DNA of 64,000 nt from contig LXFE01000126.1 of the NCBI GenBank assembly GCA_001929475.1, forward strand, positions 62,001 to 126,000, in the 5' to 3' direction. Position 1 is the first letter of the stretch, and each line of letters opens with the position of its first letter. Under the pieces are notes generated by a model, which saw only the letters and a program-made list of their open reading frames with translations, ran no database searches and was not told the origin of the DNA. This stretch comes from Neolecta irregularis DAH-3 (Eukaryota; Ascomycota; Neolectomycetes; Neolectales; Neolectaceae). Position numbers and translations under genes: made by a program. This document shows, in pieces, positions 4,857 through 17,700 of this stretch.

Positions 4857-5545
4857 ATGAACCAAGTATCCTCAACCCCCCCTCTCGCTCTTTCAACAAC
4901 CCCAGACTCGCACTCTTTATATCTGAGCTCAACATGTCTCGATTTGCTACTGATCGAGATGGTTGCTTTGGCACAGCGATTATCATCCGAATTATCATCA
5001 AAATCAATCGACGAGGATGAAGAGAAAGACGCTATTTATACCCGTCTGGAGTCTCTAGGGTTTCGAGTTGGACAGGGTGTTGTTGAACGGTCCGATTTGA
5101 ATCAAAGTTTTAAACTTACCAGTAGGTTTGCGAGGGACAAACCGAGATTCATAGATTCTTTGGATGTTATTAAATTTGTCTGCAAAGACCTTTGGATCAT
5201 CTTATTCAAGAAACAGATTGATAATCTAAAAACTAATCACAGGGTATTTCCTTGCTTTAAATCGTCGGTTGAAAGGAGATAGGGTGTATTTGTGCTTACG
5301 GATAATTCATTTCGCTGGTTTTCAAGGATGAGTACTAAACAAGGTGGCCAAGAAGCTGTCAATCGGGCTCAGCCGGTATTTGTTCTCTTCAATATTCTGT
5401 CATCTAATCTGGTGGACAGTTTCTCTGGTTTCCATGCGGCGTTATTCGAGGCGTATTATCAAATCTAGGGGTATCGAGTCATGTTGTTGCGGAAACAACA
5501 GGCCTTCCAACATGTACATTTCAAATAAAAATTTCAAATCAATGA
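4857..5545 (+). CDS. TRS33: TRAPP complex subunit Trs33 (TRAPPC6 family)
   Basis: Core subunit of the TRAPP tethering complexes, which activate Rab1/Ypt1 in ER-Golgi and Golgi traffic. Three exons (4857-5243, 5283-5375, 5420-5545) sum to 201 codons. Family features: a helix with CLDLLLIEMV near residue 35; the LESLGFRVGQGVVER segment; KFVCKDLW; TDNLKTNHRGVFVLTDN-like sequence across intron 1; then FLWFPCGVIRGVLSNLG and CTFQIKI at the C terminus, all at the spacing expected for the Bet3-fold TRAPPC6 proteins. Intron 1 is 39 nt and intron 2 is 44 nt. The N-terminal 30 residues are low-complexity and less conserved, so a downstream start is possible. It converges on MDH3 with about 145 bp between stop codons. 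Confidence 0.87.
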
Positions 5546-5689: not shown

Positions 5690-7022
5690 CTACAACTTTG
5701 AGGATTTCTGACTGATAAACTCTACACCCTTTGCCACATTTCCTTTCAATTCAGGACGGGCCTTTTCGAGAAGGTTCAACTCATAGTCAGATAATTCTCC
5801 TAATGGGTGGGCTTTGTGTGCTCCGTCGGGCTATCCAATCAGACATGACCAACGAGTATCATGTACGCCAAGTTCAATCGGGACAGAAAAATAGTCGATG
5901 CCAACCAACTTGGAAACATTCTCGCCTCCAGGGATTCCAGAGAGATGAACGTAGCTTGACTCGATGATTCCTTTTTCGCCATGGACTGCGTGGAGCAAAT
6001 TAGCTTGACGGAGAAATGAACCGGAGTAGACATATCTTGAGGAGATTCTCGGCAAACCTACACGTGCTCAATGACTGATCAGTGTAATATGGAAATAATA
6101 CTTGAATCCTGCATAAGCCATACTCAAAGTCGCAGATCCACTTCCGCCTTTAGCTTCGACAACCTCATCGCCTCCAAACTGAATTCCTGATTCAAGTCAA
6201 CGCTAAAAAACTGAAGGGGAATACGGATAGTCAGTTTTTTAATCGCTTCATGAGAAAGTTTCACAGCAGGTTCCGCTTGACTGAAGAGCGGGATGATAGT
6301 GAGACCACTGTGTCCACCAACAACGGGAACAGTGTATTGAGTGGGGTTAGTGCACTCATGAAGTTGCGAAGTGAAAGTCGAAGCTCGAATTACATCCAGA
6401 GTAGTTACTCCAAAGAGTCTCCTGGGGTCAAAGACACCATGTTTCTTCATTATTTCGGCAACAATTGGAACAGTGGAATTGACTGGGTTGGAAATAACAA
6501 GAATGAAGGCCTTCGGGCAAAATTGCGCGATTCCAGTTGCAAGAGTCTCCACAATTCCTGCATTAATCTTGAAAAGATCTTGAAATCAGACTTGGCATTA
6601 TATGTGTGTACAACCGTCTCGAGTCATTCCTGGCTTGGTAAGGTAAGTTTAGGTGAATGGTCAAAAGTAACATACCTTCCTTGGGACACCAGCTGGAATA
6701 ATCACGAAATCAGAACCGGTCAAGGCTTTCTTGAGACCATCATCTGTTGGAAGATGGCTGTTCAATTGGGCCTTTGTGGCAATGTGAGATAGATCAACGG
6801 CTACTCCAGTCAAAGCCGGAACAACATCGTATAAAGCCAATTCATCGATCAAAGGCGACATTTTGCAGAGTAGCGATAATGGCTGGCCAATACCACCTGA
6901 TACCTATTAGCACCTTGAGATAACAAGACCGAGCAGCGGTTATGTTTCGTACCGGCGCTGTAAAGTCAGTAAAGTGCTGATTTAAATACATTATACGCTC
7001 CGAGAACAGCTACTTTGACCAT
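5690..7022 (-). CDS. MDH3: NAD-dependent malate dehydrogenase, peroxisomal type (PTS1 SKL)
   Basis: Interconverts malate and oxaloacetate. Nine exons sum to exactly 331 codons: 7022-6997, 6957-6953, 6896-6676, 6633-6615, 6578-6225, 6186-6102, 6057-6032, 5985-5867, 5830-5690. The N terminus is [16 protein letters not shown], the Rossmann NAD loop, with no mitochondrial presequence. The substrate loop [16 protein letters not shown], the [10 protein letters not shown] segment and the catalytic histidine in [14 protein letters not shown] are all present. The protein ends SSKL, a classical type 1 peroxisomal targeting signal, which suggests the isozyme that reoxidises NADH from fatty-acid oxidation or the glyoxylate cycle. 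The second exon is only 5 nt long and the fourth is 19 nt. The acceptor of intron 7 was chosen (5986) because it gives the family length; a nearer acceptor at 6004 would insert six residues. Confidence 0.92.
6953..6957 (-). other. 5-nt coding microexon (exon 2 of MDH3)
   Basis: On the minus strand the sequence cag|CGCCG|gtacg sits between a 39-nt intron (6996-6958) and a 56-nt intron (6952-6897). Joining GGAGC + CGCCG + GTGGTATTGG reads Gly-Ala-Ala-Gly-Gly-Ile-Gly, the invariant NAD-binding loop of malate dehydrogenases. Without the five bases no flanking acceptor restores both frame and motif. Both introns have CTGAC or CTAAT branch-like sites near the acceptor. Confidence 0.82.
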
Positions 7023-7329: not shown

Positions 7330-8464
7330 CTATACTTCTATTTCAGGATCTCGTACAAGTAGGCACTGTCGGTATGTTCCAACACCAACAACACCCTCCT
7401 TTCTTCCCAGCCAAGGTTTTTCCGCTTCGCCCTTGATGTTTCGTTCAACTGCATAGTAGAGGACGATGCCGCCAATAACCAGAATAAATGAGATGACATA
7501 GAGCCAATATAGGTTGTATCCAAATAGTTGTGTACCGACAACAAGTCCCCAGAAATCACTCGAGAGTAACGACAAATTATAAAACACAGCGCTGGACATG
7601 CGCAGGAGAATCGGGGTGCCACTATATAAGATGCCCATTGAAATATTGAACCCTACGAGGTACCCGCCCATTTTTCCGTCCCAACGAACATTATTAAGCT
7701 GATCTCGCTCAAGTATCGCGACTTGAATGCCGTTCACGATAGCACCGTATAAACCAAGCTGTCCTAAAACCTCGTATATCGGTGCTTTAGAGACAAAGAA
7801 CTCCTCAAAGACATTTGTAATACCTTCAAGATTAGTAGATGGCACGCGTATTAATATTACCATATAAAGACGCCCCTAAAATCATGAATAGGTCTCCTTT
7901 GACTTTATCGAGACCAGGGGAGTCCTTTCCAGTCAAAAAATCACTCAAAACCAACATGCCCAATCCACCGAGGCAAACTACAATTCCAAGAATCTTTGTC
8001 CAATGATATCGAACTTTGAAAAATAGAAACGACAGGACGACTACTGTGACGATTGCTAAAGCATCCAAGAGTTGACAACTCAAGAGTGTAGTGTACTTGT
8101 AGGACTTGACGACAAAATAGTTCGCTTCGACATCGACAAAAGCAAGTGCAAAATACTTCCAACCTCGATCCCGGATCATCCCACTCCACTTTCCCAAGCC
8201 CATTTTGTAGATGCTGGTCGTAGTATATATCAGTGCGAGAACGACATAATTAAATAGACTCTGGAATGTCGGTATATCGTCGGCCCTATTCGCTAATAGC
8301 TGCGAAAAGGTATTCGTAGAAACGATCATTAATGACAAAATTTGGCCCAAAACCAAAATCGAGAGGAAATATTTGGTGAAGATGAACGAAAAGGGCCTCT
8401 TTACATGTCGACCTTCAGCAGAAGAAATTGTGATCAGTCCATCAACTAACTTAGACGTCATCAA
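7330..8464 (-). CDS. SLC35F1/F2-type multi-spanning transporter (DMT superfamily)
   Basis: Two exons (8464-7861 and 7823-7330, intron 37 nt) encode 365 residues. About ten hydrophobic helices alternate with short loops, as in the drug/metabolite transporter superfamily. The SLC35F1/F2/F6 signature is visible: KYFALAFVDVEANYFVVKSY in the third-helix region, SCQLLDALAIVTVVVLSFLF, and KILGIVVCLGGLGMLVLSD. After the intron, LYGITNVFEEFFV and YEVLGQLGLYGAIVNGIQ match the second half of the repeat. Substrates of this fungal subfamily are poorly defined, so no substrate is assigned. The start at 8464 is followed immediately by a second in-frame ATG at 8461; either could serve. Confidence 0.82.
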
Positions 8465-8767: not shown

Positions 8768-11700
8768 TCAATGCTGAGAAATCTCCGCAAACCACTGCCT
8801 TAAAGCCGAAGAAAGGACTCCTGGGAGGTCTATGACGTCCCGAACAACTACAAAATATTGGAAGGGAAATGTATCAAGATATCGAGTCATTTCCAACTTC
8901 ATCTGACCATCGTTTGTTGTGGTATACTGAACAGAATTCATATCCATGATAGAATCTTTCTTCAATCGATCGCCCAGTGCATCCACGATCACAAAAATCA
9001 TCATGATTTTCTGACCTGCTGCTTGTCGAACGAGTTGCTGTAGCGTAGAATGATCTTCACAAATGCCATCAGAAATTATGATTTGCAGCTGCCAGGTTTC
9101 GAGACTAGCATTGCTACCTGGAAGATTCTTGGCAGACTCAAAGATAATGATTGATTGTCGAACAAGATCTTTCACATTTGTCCGAACCTGACTAAATCCA
9201 AATTGTTGACAGACCTTGAATATTAATAGAAACATTTTCGAGTCAAATATACCTTTACTCCCGCTTCGAAGGTGAAGGTTTGATGGAATGGATGTACAAG
9301 TCTAAAGTTCTCTCCAAAACTAGCAATAGCAATACTACCAGCCTCGAGCTGCGTCAAAGCTTTCGAAACAAGACTAAGTGTCTCAAATGCCAGTCGAACA
9401 GACTCAGATTCGGCCATGGATTTTGAGTCATCCATAGCAATCATGATCTGATATTGCCGCTTACTCGGTTTCGTTCGTCGCATCCAAATTTTGTCTTTTT
9501 TGAACTGACTTGCGATGTAAGGAATAATTCGTTTCATATTGAGACGTTTCCCGGTCCGAAAATCTCCTCTCATTTTAGTAGCCAGTGTGGGTTCAAGGAT
9601 GAGACGAAGTTGTTCGCATAAGCTATTTGCGAGATCTCGAGTTGAGAGTTCATGTTCTTGCCAGATTGCTCTGCCTTCTACAAAGGAACGATAATAGTCT
9701 TGAGAACCCGCATAGTGATATTCGAGGCCTTGATCTCTAAGAGGTTTATCCTCGATTTCGCACTGCTCGAGATTCATATCATGGTCTTCTAGCTCTCCGC
9801 GTGCTGTACCCTCCTTCATTAGACCAATGATTGCACCAGAACATTGCCGGCCCTCATTGATTTCATCATCTTTAGGTCGTTCAGTTTTGCCATCGACTTC
9901 GACATCAGACTTGGCCTCCATTTCAATATCTTGCTCAACCGGTGGCATAGCCTGTTCAACTTTAGAATCAAGAACCATGGCTTCTTCCAGTCTCTGTGCT
10001 TGAGTTTGTGTAGCAGAACCGAGAGCCTGTGTATCATGAGCAGTCTCGTCGTTCTGTATATGTTCCAATTCATTTGCGTGGGAAGAATCTGCTTGAATTT
10101 GTTCTTGGTTTGTATCCGAATGCTCAGCCTGTTGGGCAATTTGTTTTCGCCATTCCTCAAGAGTTTCTCCAAGTTTACGAAGGGGATCTGGATTCGAATC
10201 GCGTTGAGGCGGTCTTTGCTCGAGATTAAGATCATTGGTTTTCTGCGACTGGGCGTCTTTTGCTGCTGATTGTTGAGCGTTTCCAGCTTCTGTGGGCATT
10301 TGTTGATTTTCTGGGTTGTCTTGAGCTGTGGGCTCTTCATCTATATGTCTTTCAGCCGCTTCGTTGGCTGTGCTTTGTTTCGACTCATCTTTCTGACCAC
10401 TGGTGCCTTGAACAGAGTTAGATGTCTCTTCTTGATTGTCGTTTTTCCCATCGATACCTTGGGACACTTCATTGATATCTTGAAAGTCATCGTCTTGTGC
10501 TTGTGGCATTTCCTCAGCTTCTGTTTTGTCCAGCTGCGGCTGGTTTGCTCGGTTATCTTCATCATCTTCTGCTAGCTCTTCAGCATTCTCTCCTTGTAGT
10601 TCATTCTTCTCATCCGGGATTTCTTCTATATCCAAGTCACTCATTTTGTCATCCCCTTCGCTTTCATCCTTACCCTCCTGGTCCAACTCCATATCATCCG
10701 GTAGATCCATGATCTCTGCATCCGGGATCCTTTCAGTTGCAACATCTTGTTCTCGATTTTCCAGGTCGTGATCTTCGTTACCTCTGTCATCGTTGTCTTC
10801 ACTCTCTTCTTCCAGTTTTCCTTCCTTCTGCTCCTCTCCTTCTAGTGGTTTCTGTTTCTCTTTTTTCTCGTCGTTCTTACCATCCTCTTTACCGACCACA
10901 TCTGACCGTCCATCCTGCTCTTTGCTCTTGCCATCTTGATCTATATTTTTCCCTTCATCTAGTTTATCCTCTTCACCTTTTTCATTCCAAAGTTTCTCGT
11001 CAACAGTCGCAGGATCAAGATCATCGACATCGCCGATTCTATCTTCGGGATCTTGCTCGTTATCATTTCCATCATTGCTCTCATCGCTTCCTTCATCGTG
11101 GTCTAGTGATTCGATGTCGGCCTCGAAATCTGCATCAACATCTATTGCATCATCGCCTTTCTTTTTATCTTCGGGTTCATTCTTCTCCGCATCAGGCTGC
11201 TTGGCAAAGTCTTCAAGATCCTCTTGATCAGGTAAATCGTCACTGATGTTCTTCGCCCCTTCGCCGTCACCAAGACCGGTGCCCTCGGATAATCCGGTAG
11301 CCTTGGTAGGATCCGTTTCCCCAGCTTGCGGGGTGCAGAATCCTTTTCTGGCCACATCTTGATACAGTTTCTGGAGGATAAAGACCGTTTTGCAGACAGA
11401 GCTGTGCTGATCACAGATTATTGAGAGAGTTTGTTCGACGATCTGGCTATATTGTTCAAGGAACGGTCTAACTAGACACCAGAGAACAAAGACGTGTCGA
11501 CCGACCTCAACTTGAGTCCGTGCAATATTGAGATTTCGAGTTATATCAATGCACTTTTGAAAGCAACTGAGAATGCTCGACAGATGTAACGATCGATTGA
11601 GTGCTTTAAGGTTAGCATGGCTTTGGTTGAATCTTTCTTCGTCAAGATCAGGTAATCCGGACAGTCGTCCTAAAGCTGGACATAGTTTTTGAACGGATAC

Positions 11701-14700
11701 CAGGACTGAATCGCAAAGTTCTTGAAGCCCAGCATTCAGTTTTTTGAGAGATGAGTCTTCATCGATTACATCCAATGTCTCAATTCCCGCTAGCCGCGCT
11801 GAAGAAATAACCTCAGAAATCCATTCCGAAAACGGCTGGATTATGTATTTGACCGAAGGGGTAATGGTCACAGACCTGTTGATAAAAGCAAAAATCTCCT
11901 TACAGAATGTGACAAAATCATCTATCAGAGAGAATTGAATACAAGTGCTGATTTTGAGCTCTGAAGTCGCTTGTTCCGAGAAACTCTGACAACGATCTTC
12001 AGCCACAGACTTGAAATCCTGCAACACCTCGACCAAGGATGCACAATTATCCAGTGCAATAAGATCGTTATGACGATTGATAGTCTTAATTATGTCATGC
12101 AGGTAGAGCGGGAGTAGACGACAGCATGATTTCAGATTCTCCAATTTCTCGATACATCTAGGAGCCGTAATGATTGCAGACGCATTATCTGGAGTAAGTT
12201 CTCGAATCCTTTGGATGGTTCTTTGCATAATTTTAAGATCATTGAAATTCGCAACAACAACACGTCTTTCATTAAGAACAACAGACAAAAGAAATTCAAA
12301 CATTACCGACGCTCGACGAACCTCAGAGTGCGTCAAATCTGTTGAATGTCCAAGGGCAGCAGCACGACATCGCGGAATACTTTCGAGAATAGCAAAGAAG
12401 TATTGACTCATCCTCTCGCTTTGTTTGTCAAGATGCGATAAAGTTGCTGAAGTTTCTAGAGCAGGAAGAGAACACATAAGTTCCGCAACACTTGCCTGAG
12501 ACCTGATAATATCCGCAGAGATGTTTGATTTGATACCCCATTGTCTGATATGTTTGAGAGTATCAGCAAATAATTTATGTTTTCGGACTTTGAGATTCTT
12601 TACAGCACTCTCGTTTTCTGAATCCAGAAAGACTGGTGTCTCTTTTTGCAAAATTCTTATGTTTTCAAGTAAGGAGCCTGTAAAATTTTCGAGATGAGAT
12701 GAAATGAAAATATCACCTGAACTAACACTGTTCTGAAAGATCTTGCGCATTCTGCTGATTGTAGGTTTGATTTCAATCAGCCTTGAAGGTCGATTGTTTG
12801 ATTTGAGGACTATCTCAAGAACATGAACAGGCAATTCAGATACAACCTCTGGAATTTGGCCGAGTGATGCAATGCAGAGATTGCTCGAATTATTTCCTCT
12901 TGTTTCTAGAACAATACCGACCTCCAAGATTGTCGAAAGAGGTTGTTGTAAGACTTCTTGATACTTCCTTACAACTTTGTAAAGGCTGTAATGCGATTTC
13001 TTGGAGCTTTCTCTGAGAGCAAAGACATTTGTATCTCGCCAACTTGCTAATTTGGCAACCTCGGATATGTCTTTCTCCAGGATCTTCCGTTGCTCTAGAA
13101 TCGAGCTCTGGACCTGATGCAGAAACTGGGAGTAAAGGTGAGTGATATTTCCGAGCATATCGGCTATCTTTCGAAACTCTGGGTACAAGGTTTGATAGAC
13201 ACTGGCATGCTGCCAGAAAGCTTGAACGATTCGCAGGCGAGTTTCGAACTGACCCTTGTTTGAGGATTGAAGTAGACTATTGACAACGCCTGAAAGGTCC
13301 AGAATATGGGAACTCAGGTCGGAAGAAGAATCTTCAAGAATTTGCAAGGGATTTCGGACACAACTCTCGTATAGATTATACCACCATTTTGAGGCACTCT
13401 CTCTGCAATAGTGATCTTCGAGGTCAAATAGCTGTGACCAAGAATTGAGCTCTAATCGCCGCCATTTTATAATGAGATCCCGAAGTTGCGTTTGGCGTTC
13501 ACTGATGGAATAGTGTCGGCTTGCAACTTTCTCCCAGTCGTCTAACATAAAGAACAAACGCTCAAGCTTCGATAAGAAGGCGGCCAGAGGAGAACTTTCC
13601 GGCATGTCTAAGAGAGCTTGACAAGAGATTTGCGCATCTTGAAGAGTAGCATGTTCCGGCCAAAGGTCCAGAAGAGGTTCTAGATCCGCATCGAGCTTTA
13701 GCAGGTGAGATCGCAAACTTTCTGCTTCTTCAAAGTTCGGATCCTTATAAAAGCTATATGGGCGTTGTGTACGACGAGATTTCAAGGGCGATAAATAGCT
13801 GGAATGGTTGATAATAGCGATTTGAACTATGAGCGGTTCAATGCTTGGGGTAATTCCAATAGGATCGATTTGGATTGCATCACAAAAGATCCTTCTGCTG
13901 TCCGCCAAAATCCCATCGAAATCGACGAGAACGGGATCATACAGTTCGCCGAAAAGTTGCTCGTGTAACTTAACTAAAGCCATTGCGATATTGTCTCCGT
14001 CGGTCTCTTTAACCACAGATCCAATATCATCTTCGAAATCTGGGAACATGCCTCTTACTTTATCCTCAATAGAATCATTCTCATCTGGCACATTTCGATA
14101 CAGACTATTCGCAGCAGCAGCCTCTTCTTTTTCTATTTGGATTTTCAGAGTATGATGCTTGAGGAATCGGATAAAAGGTTGTTCAGAGTAGCAAACTTTC
14201 TGGGTTTGTGATAGTGTCCTTTTAAAACTGTCTTTCGCCAAATGTACAAGCCAGTATGTTTCTCCGAATAGGTTTGTATCCAATCCAGTCGCTAAACCAA
14301 GGACATCTGCTCGGGTCGATGATGAAGCCAAGATATGTGGAATTGATAACAGATCCTGAAAGATGCAGCCGCGATCATTACGAATTAGCTCGTTCTGTTT
14401 CCAAATTGTTCCACAGGCCACGAGAGACACACCAAGAATCAGCCGCTCAACCATTTGACATAAGGGCTCTAGTAAATCGACGTAACTGGCGTAGTCTTTT
14501 CGTAACTTGTCAACAAAATGGTTCCAAGTCTGACGGAACATTTTCGTCTCCAGAATAGCATTTTGCCGACCCGAGCAAAGGTTCTCTACAAGATTTTCGA
14601 CTAAAGATGATGTGACTACAATTGACATGAAATTTTCAATATCCTGGTATATAGAGGCGATTTGAGGTTTCCGAGGACGATAACGATTGACAGTCAAAAT

Positions 14701-17700
14701 GGGGGATTGAGGACTAAGTTCTTCGATTCTTTGCCCCAGCAGGTCAATAGTTGGACTTGACGAAGACCCACTAATATTGAATTCTACCCAACGACGTACT
14801 TCAAGCTCCTCACGAAGACCGAAGCATTTATGTTCGTAAATATGATGCTCAACAATCGCCTCCATTGCCGGGTCGTAGGGTTTGTCCGGAACATATAAAA
14901 GCAATAGGCTTTTTGAAAATTGAATAGTAGCTTGACCAGATAAATATAATCGTTTGGAATATTCCCTTTCAGCCACGAAGGCCTCTATAAATCCGATAAC
15001 CTTTGAGAAGTGACTTAGCCAAAGCTTTGAAAAGTATTTTGCTGTAATACTGACGAATGGTATTTGTTGAATGACTAGGCATATTTGAACGATATCCTCG
15101 CTTCTAGTGCTTTGTAGGTTTGACATAGAATCGAGAAATGTCCATTTATCTGAACTCTCGAGTTCTTGGGGTGGGATTTCTAGATGAAGCTTGATAATCT
15201 GTCACGTTATCTATAAGATTCGTAAATCATGCATACTTGGATAAAGTGAAGTAAGATTGAGAGCAGTAAGAAATCCAGCTTGTCAGAACACATAGACTCG
15301 GTAGATCGTGCTATTTCCCGACCGAGAAGAGCGTACTGAAATCGTGCATCATGAGTGTATCGTAACGAATGGCTCTGATTTCTGCTGCTGCACATTAACA
15401 ATGCTAAAATAAATTCAAAACACACTGATTCTTCAAAAAGAGTGAGAGTGCTTCTCCATTCAGCCAGTCAGCCAGATCGTCCCGAACTCTCTAAATTATT
15501 AGCGTGTGAACGAAAGACTTGGAACTACCTTCGAATCAGACATGAAATTGGAGGTTTCAGGTCTATTGAGAAGGAACAGTAAGATTGATTTATCCTTTGA
15601 GAGCACTGGAACCTTAGTTTATACAGAGCTCATTTGAGTACCCGCAGATAACACTTCGGTAGACGAAATTCCCGAGAGATGTAAGAGCTCCATAGTTTCT
15701 GATTTCAGAAGTGTGTCCTTAATCTTCAACTTCAATTTGATAAAAGAAAATTACATTTGAAAATTTTGAATGTAGCATTTGGTACTGCACCAAGGTGCGA
15801 AATGCCTGCGTTTGTAAAACGGAAGTCTCTCTTGGGATGATAACGCTCACTAGCTGTGCAGTGAGATCCCTGATAGACTAGAATATTAGCATAATTACCA
15901 GAGAGTGAGGTTGACTTTGAACAGACCGTCTGAATCGTGCAGAATTTTGGATGAACATTGAGATTCGATAATAGCGGCTATGAATGTCCTCTTCGCCTGA
16001 ATCACCATGTTGAGATCTTGTAATGAGAGAGGTACATATGTCATGATAAAACCTAAAGAAGAGGAGGCAGCTCTTTCAAATTGACTCAACAGTTGTACTG
16101 AGTCATTGAAGAACACCCAGGCAGCTTCATTTGTAGGTCGCTCAATACGAAAAGCTGACCATATACACTTCATAGAAAATCCTCTATTTAACTTCAATGT
16201 CTGAGAGAATTCGTTGAGTGAACTCAGAAGGTCAAAAATCAACGGCGAAGTTTGGGCTTCATTATTTCGCTGAAGACTGTCTTCCAGTACCTTGCGGTAT
16301 GTGTGTAAATGACTGGGATTGAAGTTTTCGGATGCTGCGTTTTCTAGGAGATGTCGGAGTATGATGAGGAAATCTTCAAAGGCATTGAGTTCAAGCTGAC
16401 AGTTAACGTTAGAAGGAATATTGGGGTTACTCGTGTCGCACACTCATATCTTCTTTGGGATAACCAGTTATTCCCTTTAACAACAACAGAATTAATAAAC
16501 TTTGCTAATTCAGGGGACTCATATGCCTGAGGAGTCGATGATTGTGGCACTTCTAATAGTGACAAGGATCGTTCGAGAAAAGTCATTCTAGAAGGTATTT
16601 TTCTTCGAGATTGTGAAAGATATTGTTCCATCAAATCTGAAATGGATTTCCATAAACAAAGAATCTCATAGACGAGGGAAAGGTCGAAAGAACGAACATG
16701 CAATTGACAATCGGCGGATAAAGGTGCAATGATATATGGATTATTGATTGAATTAATCGACTATAAAAACAACTATCAGTACAAGACATAAAGCTTGGCT
16801 GTGAAAAGCCAAAATGACGCACCTGTACTAGCATGTAAGAAGCAGGCAATTTGAGATACCTCTGAACTTCGGAATAATGTTTCTGAATATCTTCAACGAA
16901 TGGATGTTGAGTTAACATTTCATATAGAGTGCCTATTTGAGTGAATTGCAGTTCTGAAGAACTTTTGAGCCAGTTTTGGAACATTGTGTTCCTCGAATGT
17001 GGAAAGAACTCTGTGAGGTTTCGAAGAAGCTTATTGACCACAGACTCATTTCTCATTTGTGATCCAAAAGACACAAGGCTCCTTTCAAGAGATTGAATTC
17101 GATAGAAATCAGACTCAATTTGACCTGCATAACATTTATCAGGAATTTCATCGATCAAGATTTGCGGAATGAATATTTCAATTCCACGATTTCGCATGGC
17201 TCTAGATAATTCGCCATATCGTGGGTTGATCGTGAGGAAGAGTCTAAAATTCTTATGAGGCACGACCACCCTTGGTTGACCATCGGCTTCATTTCGCTCG
17301 TTGACAGTTAGATAGCCCTTCGGTTCTAAGAGGGAATTCAATCGATCAAGTACTGATGAACTGCAGAGATTTGCATTATCTAGGACCAGCCATTTTCCTT
17401 GTTCGACAGCCCGAAGGAGAATTCCATCAAGCCATTCGAACCCGGTAAATGAAGGATGTCTGATAGAGTGATGGAGGGTTCGAGCTCGAGCAGCAATAAC
17501 TTGATCTGCCGAACCAGATGATGTTTCGAAAACCATGGCTAAGTGCAGAAGCAACGCTGATATCTTGTCCAACTTGAATGAATCGCTGTAGAAGGCAGTT
17601 GCAAGGACATCGAATGCTATTGAAGAATCTTGAATAAATGCGGATGAAACAAGGCTTTTAACAACAGAGTCTTTCGTATCATCTAGAAATTGTCGGACTT

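Follow-up and report, generated by a model that had tools for sequence, protein, structure and literature searches.

Whether five nucleotides, CGCCG, can form a coding exon of their own was the question raised by a locus on the minus strand of the window, the 64,000-nt stretch of Neolecta irregularis DAH-3 (Taphrinomycotina, Ascomycota) DNA analysed here. The genome was examined as one draft assembly (363 contigs, 8,961,725 bases in total), which may be incomplete. Between 7022 and 5690 of the window a nine-exon malate dehydrogenase (MDH) gene was read, in which all eight introns start with GT and end with AG, exon 1 ends with CTCGGAGC at 6997 and exon 3 starts with GTGGTATTGGCC at 6896. Re-reading the DNA and assembling the exons reproduced the coordinates and sequences of the initial annotation, together with its total of 996 nt (331 codons plus stop). 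The parts of the gene, with the analyses on which each rests, were as follows.

6997..7022, minus strand: exon 1, 26 nt, MVKVAVLGA plus two bases of the following codon (DNA reading, exon assembly, spliced alignment)
6958..6996, minus strand: intron 1, 39 nt, GTATAA...TTACAG, branch-like CTGAC 8 nt before its end (exon assembly, splice-site scoring)
6953..6957, minus strand: predicted 5-nt microexon CGCCG, completing GAAGGIGQ (assembly, model enumeration, spliced alignment, shuffles)
6897..6952, minus strand: intron 2, 56 nt, GTACGA...TATCAG, branch-like CTAAT 10 nt before its end (exon assembly, splice-site scoring)
6676..6896, minus strand: exon 3, 221 nt, starting GTGGTATTGGCC (exon assembly, spliced alignment)
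6615..6633, minus strand: exon 4, 19 nt, coding for PGMTRD (exon assembly, spliced alignment)
6225..6578, minus strand: exon 5, 354 nt (exon assembly, spliced alignment)
6102..6186, minus strand: exon 6, 85 nt (exon assembly, spliced alignment)
6032..6057, minus strand: exon 7, 26 nt, FAENLLKI, missing from the deposited protein P0001 (assembly, domain scores, spliced alignment, homologues)
5867..5985, minus strand: exon 8, 119 nt (exon assembly, spliced alignment)
5690..5830, minus strand: exon 9, 141 nt, stop codon included (exon assembly)

The product matched both Ldh_1_N (158.2 bits, curated cut-off 27) and Ldh_1_C (134.3 bits, curated cut-off 22.6) as well as solved malate dehydrogenases. 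Two ordinary introns would lie 5 nt apart within its NAD-binding loop, and removal of both would give GAAGGIGQ in an open frame. Gene models with 0, 1 or 2 introns between the ATG and the end of exon 3 were enumerated, allowing GT or GC donors, AG acceptors, introns of at least 20 nt and a last acceptor at most 60 nt inside exon 3. Ninety-one in-frame open models resulted, of which 51 retained GIGQP and a single one, that with the 5-nt exon, read GAAGGIGQ, bearing out the proposal that this loop is obtained only with the CGCCG island. GAAGGIGQ had also been described as the invariant loop of the family, which is not so: among the 120 homologues listed, which include P0001, the deposited protein of this gene, GASGGIGQ was found in 85, GAAGGIGQ in 34 and GAYGGIGQ in one, while the first Gly was followed by Ala in all 120. 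An MDH paralogue on contig C305 reads GAAGGIGQ with the loop in one piece, so the introns were either gained in the nine-exon gene or lost in the paralogue. An introner origin of the two introns was considered and rejected, as a second copy of the 100-nt stretch holding them was not found; a search of the genome at E up to 10, which skips very common words, returned only the self match.

Splice sites were scored with a matrix built from 71 of the 79 introns of a census of Neolecta gene models described below (GT donor, at most 90 nt), including introns of PP2A and Rho C180 and excluding MDH introns 1 and 2. On this matrix, whose ranks lean towards agreement because the aligner favours common donors, 25 of the 71 donors scored no higher than that of intron 1 and 40 no higher than that of intron 2, the corresponding numbers for acceptors being 40 and 38. 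The 71 introns spanned 32-78 nt (median 38), and introns 1 and 2 are therefore of normal size. The branch-like motifs in the two introns match YTRAY, which was present in 50 of the 71 introns and in 41 of these 50 stood 6-14 nt before the intron end. The splice and branch sites of both introns are ordinary for the Neolecta genome.

Without a microexon, the loop could be formed as GVSGGIGQ by one intron alone, which would start at 6998 with a GC donor following GGA and finish at 6904 with the acceptor TAATAG. This model is in frame and open, its Ser is the commonest residue at the third loop position (85 of the 120 homologues listed) and its acceptor scored well (44 of the 71 census acceptors no higher). 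However, the Val that it places at the second loop position occurred in none of the 120 homologues listed, and its donor GGA/GCGTAT scored under all 71 census donors, on a matrix that holds no GC donors and is harsh on them for that reason. By our reading of the sequence the CTAAT motif would end at the acceptor, so that a usable branch site would be lost, and P0001 does not follow this model either. We consider a single GC-donor intron very unlikely.

Spliced protein-to-DNA alignment, run without hints by a purpose-written aligner, recovered the 5-nt exon with all six reference proteins, five of which do not come from this gene. The references were P0001 (the gene's own product), P0002, P0003 (Saitoella), P0005, P0006 and P0036 (Taphrina), and the P0006 run appended a false 7-nt terminal exon. 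P0002, whose contigs do not exceed 1,773 bases and which is probably a transcript from a relative, was the closest non-self homologue among those listed (86% identity) and its loop reads GAAGGIGQ. To gauge agreement by chance, the 100-nt stretch in between was dinucleotide-shuffled while its ends were kept fixed. An AG-/GT-bounded island restoring GAAGGIGQ arose in 35 of 20,000 shuffles and one restoring GA[AS]GGIGQ in 73 of 20,000. With other donors permitted, GA[AS]GGIGQ was restored by one intron in 72 of 3,000 shuffles and by two introns in 13 of 3,000; the real sequence holds no one-intron GT-AG solution yielding GA[AS]GGIGQ. Real alignment scores were tied or beaten in 20 (P0002), 55 (P0003), 16 (P0005), 29 (P0006) and 20 (P0036) of 300 shuffles, presumably by way of simpler one-intron fits, and with 16-55 such cases per 300 these scores were rejected as strong proof. 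Support from the less strict controls is weaker, which warns against over-confidence, and the shuffles judged by alignment score favour the microexon only to a moderate degree.

A single draft assembly was examined, and a sequencing or assembly error, or decay of the gene, might make one normal intron look like two. This would sit poorly with a gene that is otherwise open through 331 codons and with two introns that both have full splice signals and normal lengths, and we hold it to be extremely improbable.

With CGCCG skipped, the reading frame stops after 26 residues; with intron 1 retained it stops after 18, and with intron 2 retained after 44, so that a working enzyme would need CGCCG to be included. 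Taking a microexon as an internal coding exon of at most 30 nt, CGCCG codes for part of the protein, is required for the frame and has, by its sequence, proper spliceosomal intron boundaries on both sides. Since every skipping or retention form tested stops early, the exon might instead be real and regulated, its skipped and retained forms tuning the enzyme level through mRNA decay, and a regulated fungal microexon has been described in Trichoderma Xlr2 (PMC11121469). The splice signals of the MDH introns are ordinary, however, and no sign of regulation was seen in the sequence, which makes regulation improbable. No other reading of the DNA comes close to that of a 5-nt coding microexon, and it is highly likely that CGCCG (6957-6953) is a constitutively included exon of the N. 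irregularis malate dehydrogenase gene.

Short fungal introns are usually defined across the intron. Each of the two introns would accordingly be recognised across itself and the two removed one after another, as only 5 nt lie between the 3' site of the first and the 5' site of the second, so that simultaneous occupancy of both is hardly possible. The CGCCG exon may then be a by-product of the dense packing of introns in this gene rather than a regulated cassette. The suggestion in the initial annotation that such an exon challenges exon-definition models was overstated, since the very short census introns would fit intron definition and there are documented cases of exons of only 1-5 nt.

P0001, deposited as the cytoplasmic malate dehydrogenase of N. 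irregularis DAH-3, contains GAAGGIGQ and was reproduced by the model with the 5-nt exon. It was rejected as proof of splicing because it is a predicted protein and not independent; the main text of the Neolecta genome paper is without the terms 'RNA-seq', 'intron' and 'gene prediction' and defers to Supplementary Methods (PMC5309816). The gene had been expected to be mis-started by automated annotation, which was not borne out, as P0001 already carries the expected start and loop, but mis-starts of this kind do occur: the deposited 14-3-3 protein P0243 starts within the intron preceding a 12-nt exon. P0001 appears to be wrong at the 26-nt exon 7 (6057-6032), which it lacks, intron 7 being read as coding in the place of FAENLLKIF (window 6101-5986). 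On Ldh_1_C these differences leave P0001 with 122.3 bits, against 134.3 for the nine-exon model, and FAE or YAE was present in 105 of the 120 homologues listed, exon 7 having FAE. Deposited Neolecta proteins can therefore err at small exons, as in 14-3-3 (12-nt exon) and at MDH exon 7 (26 nt).

Other tiny exons were sought in a census in which conserved proteins were aligned to the Neolecta genome, giving 14 gene models in a list compiled by hand. The genes do not represent a random sample, as they were picked for being conserved, and MDH because of the CGCCG finding; only internal exons were counted, with first and last exons left out. The PP2A model of contig C279 was dropped as it contains a stop, and two models with introns above 200 nt, that of Rho on C286 and the one built on C279 from the PP1 reference, were dropped as unreliable. 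The 15- and 75-nt exons opening Rho C180 were dropped because they adjoin a 573-nt intron, and an EF1A alignment on the wrong strand was likewise set aside. For 14-3-3 on C257 a spurious 6-nt first exon was replaced by a hand-read 12-nt first exon, and in Ran a 1-nt island placed by the aligner was replaced by the result of an exhaustive boundary search. Six of the 62 internal exons in the 14 hand-compiled models were at most 15 nt long and were spread over five genes: MDH (5 nt), PP1 (7 nt), Ran (11 and 12 nt), 14-3-3 (12 nt) and beta-tubulin (14 nt). With MDH set aside, 5 of 55 internal exons in 13 genes were of this size. Exons of about 14 nt are common in fungal beta-tubulin genes.

The PP1 exon is a 7-nt internal exon, ATTTGTG, within the KICGDIHG motif (L030, on C150, reverse strand, 1466-1472). 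It restores KICGDI, which was achieved in 2 of 20,000 shuffles. No row named Neolecta was found among the best 120 of 7993 PP1 homologues, a set in which clustering at 90% identity may hide one. In 14-3-3 (L060, on C257, 1035-1109) the 12-nt internal exon GAAGTCGCAAAG (1089-1100) is followed by a GC donor, and it is supported by a paralogue, as the 20, 12 and 42 nt on C257 correspond to a single 74-nt exon on C134. For the Ran P-loop (L064, on C288, reverse strand) all possible boundary dinucleotides were tried, the last acceptor being kept fixed in two-intron models. The sole model found that restored GDGGTGKTTFVKR/GDGGTGKTT used an AT-AC intron of 43 nt (ATATGCC...CTAGCAC) followed by the 11-nt exon GTACTGGAAAG; another Ran exon is 12 nt. 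The P-loop may alternatively have diverged or contain a sequence error. We tentatively propose that N. irregularis is a microexon-rich ascomycete, an idea that is plausible, if short of probable. Dense introns of about 38 nt would cut the loops of housekeeping proteins (the MDH NAD loop, PP1 KICGDIHG and the Ran P-loop) into exons of 5-12 nt, one of them beside an AT-AC intron, so that the spliceosome would routinely have to join exons below its own footprint.

Exons this small are already known, and CGCCG, judged from the DNA, is very probably real and a good new example of them. An exon of a single nucleotide, confirmed by reads, lies within a conserved motif of Fusarium CYP621A P450 genes (PMC12940212). 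Like CGCCG it is an ultra-short, frame-keeping ascomycete exon in a conserved motif found by homologue comparison, but it is 1 nt long, lies in another gene and has read-confirmed splicing, whereas the Neolecta exon is predicted from the DNA sequence. Plant microexons of 1-15 nt, some of them 5 nt, have been reported (PMC8831610), as has a 1-nt exon in plant APC11 (PMC4674806). These are likewise coding, and their omission breaks the protein; the plant exons are constitutive and often missed by annotation, but they are conserved across species and RNA-tested while the Neolecta exon comes from a single genome. Human constitutive exons of 4-5 bp in MPC1, TNNI1, TMEM237 and KSR1, for which skipping was not seen in the lines tested (PMC9929638), share with CGCCG their size class and a length that is not a multiple of three. 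The MPC1 exon, in contrast to that between the 39- and 56-nt MDH introns, lies between long introns and relies on intronic signals. Phanerochaete P450 genes, with exons down to 6 bp (PMC1184071), resemble Neolecta MDH in being fungal and having short introns, but they are those of a basidiomycete and of one gene superfamily. Our literature search returned no paper joining Neolecta with microexon (the spelling 'micro-exon' was tried only with 'fungal'), and matches for malate dehydrogenase with microexon concerned other subjects. Confirmation by RNA would place a very small exon in a central metabolic gene of an ascomycete that diverged early. The tiny exons seen here, CGCCG included, make Neolecta a candidate organism in which to study how two introns a few bases apart are dealt with by the spliceosome of a fungus.

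Scans of the window with Rfam (gathering threshold) and for tRNAs gave no matches. The MDH gene is flanked upstream by an SLC35F transporter in two overlapping open frames (window 7330-8464, minus strand) and on its other side by a TRAPP component fragment (window 4857-5282, plus strand). An open frame of 1967 aa (window 9223-15126, minus strand) contains a long acidic stretch and had no Pfam match at E 0.001; it resembles the end of midasin/Rea1 and may represent it.
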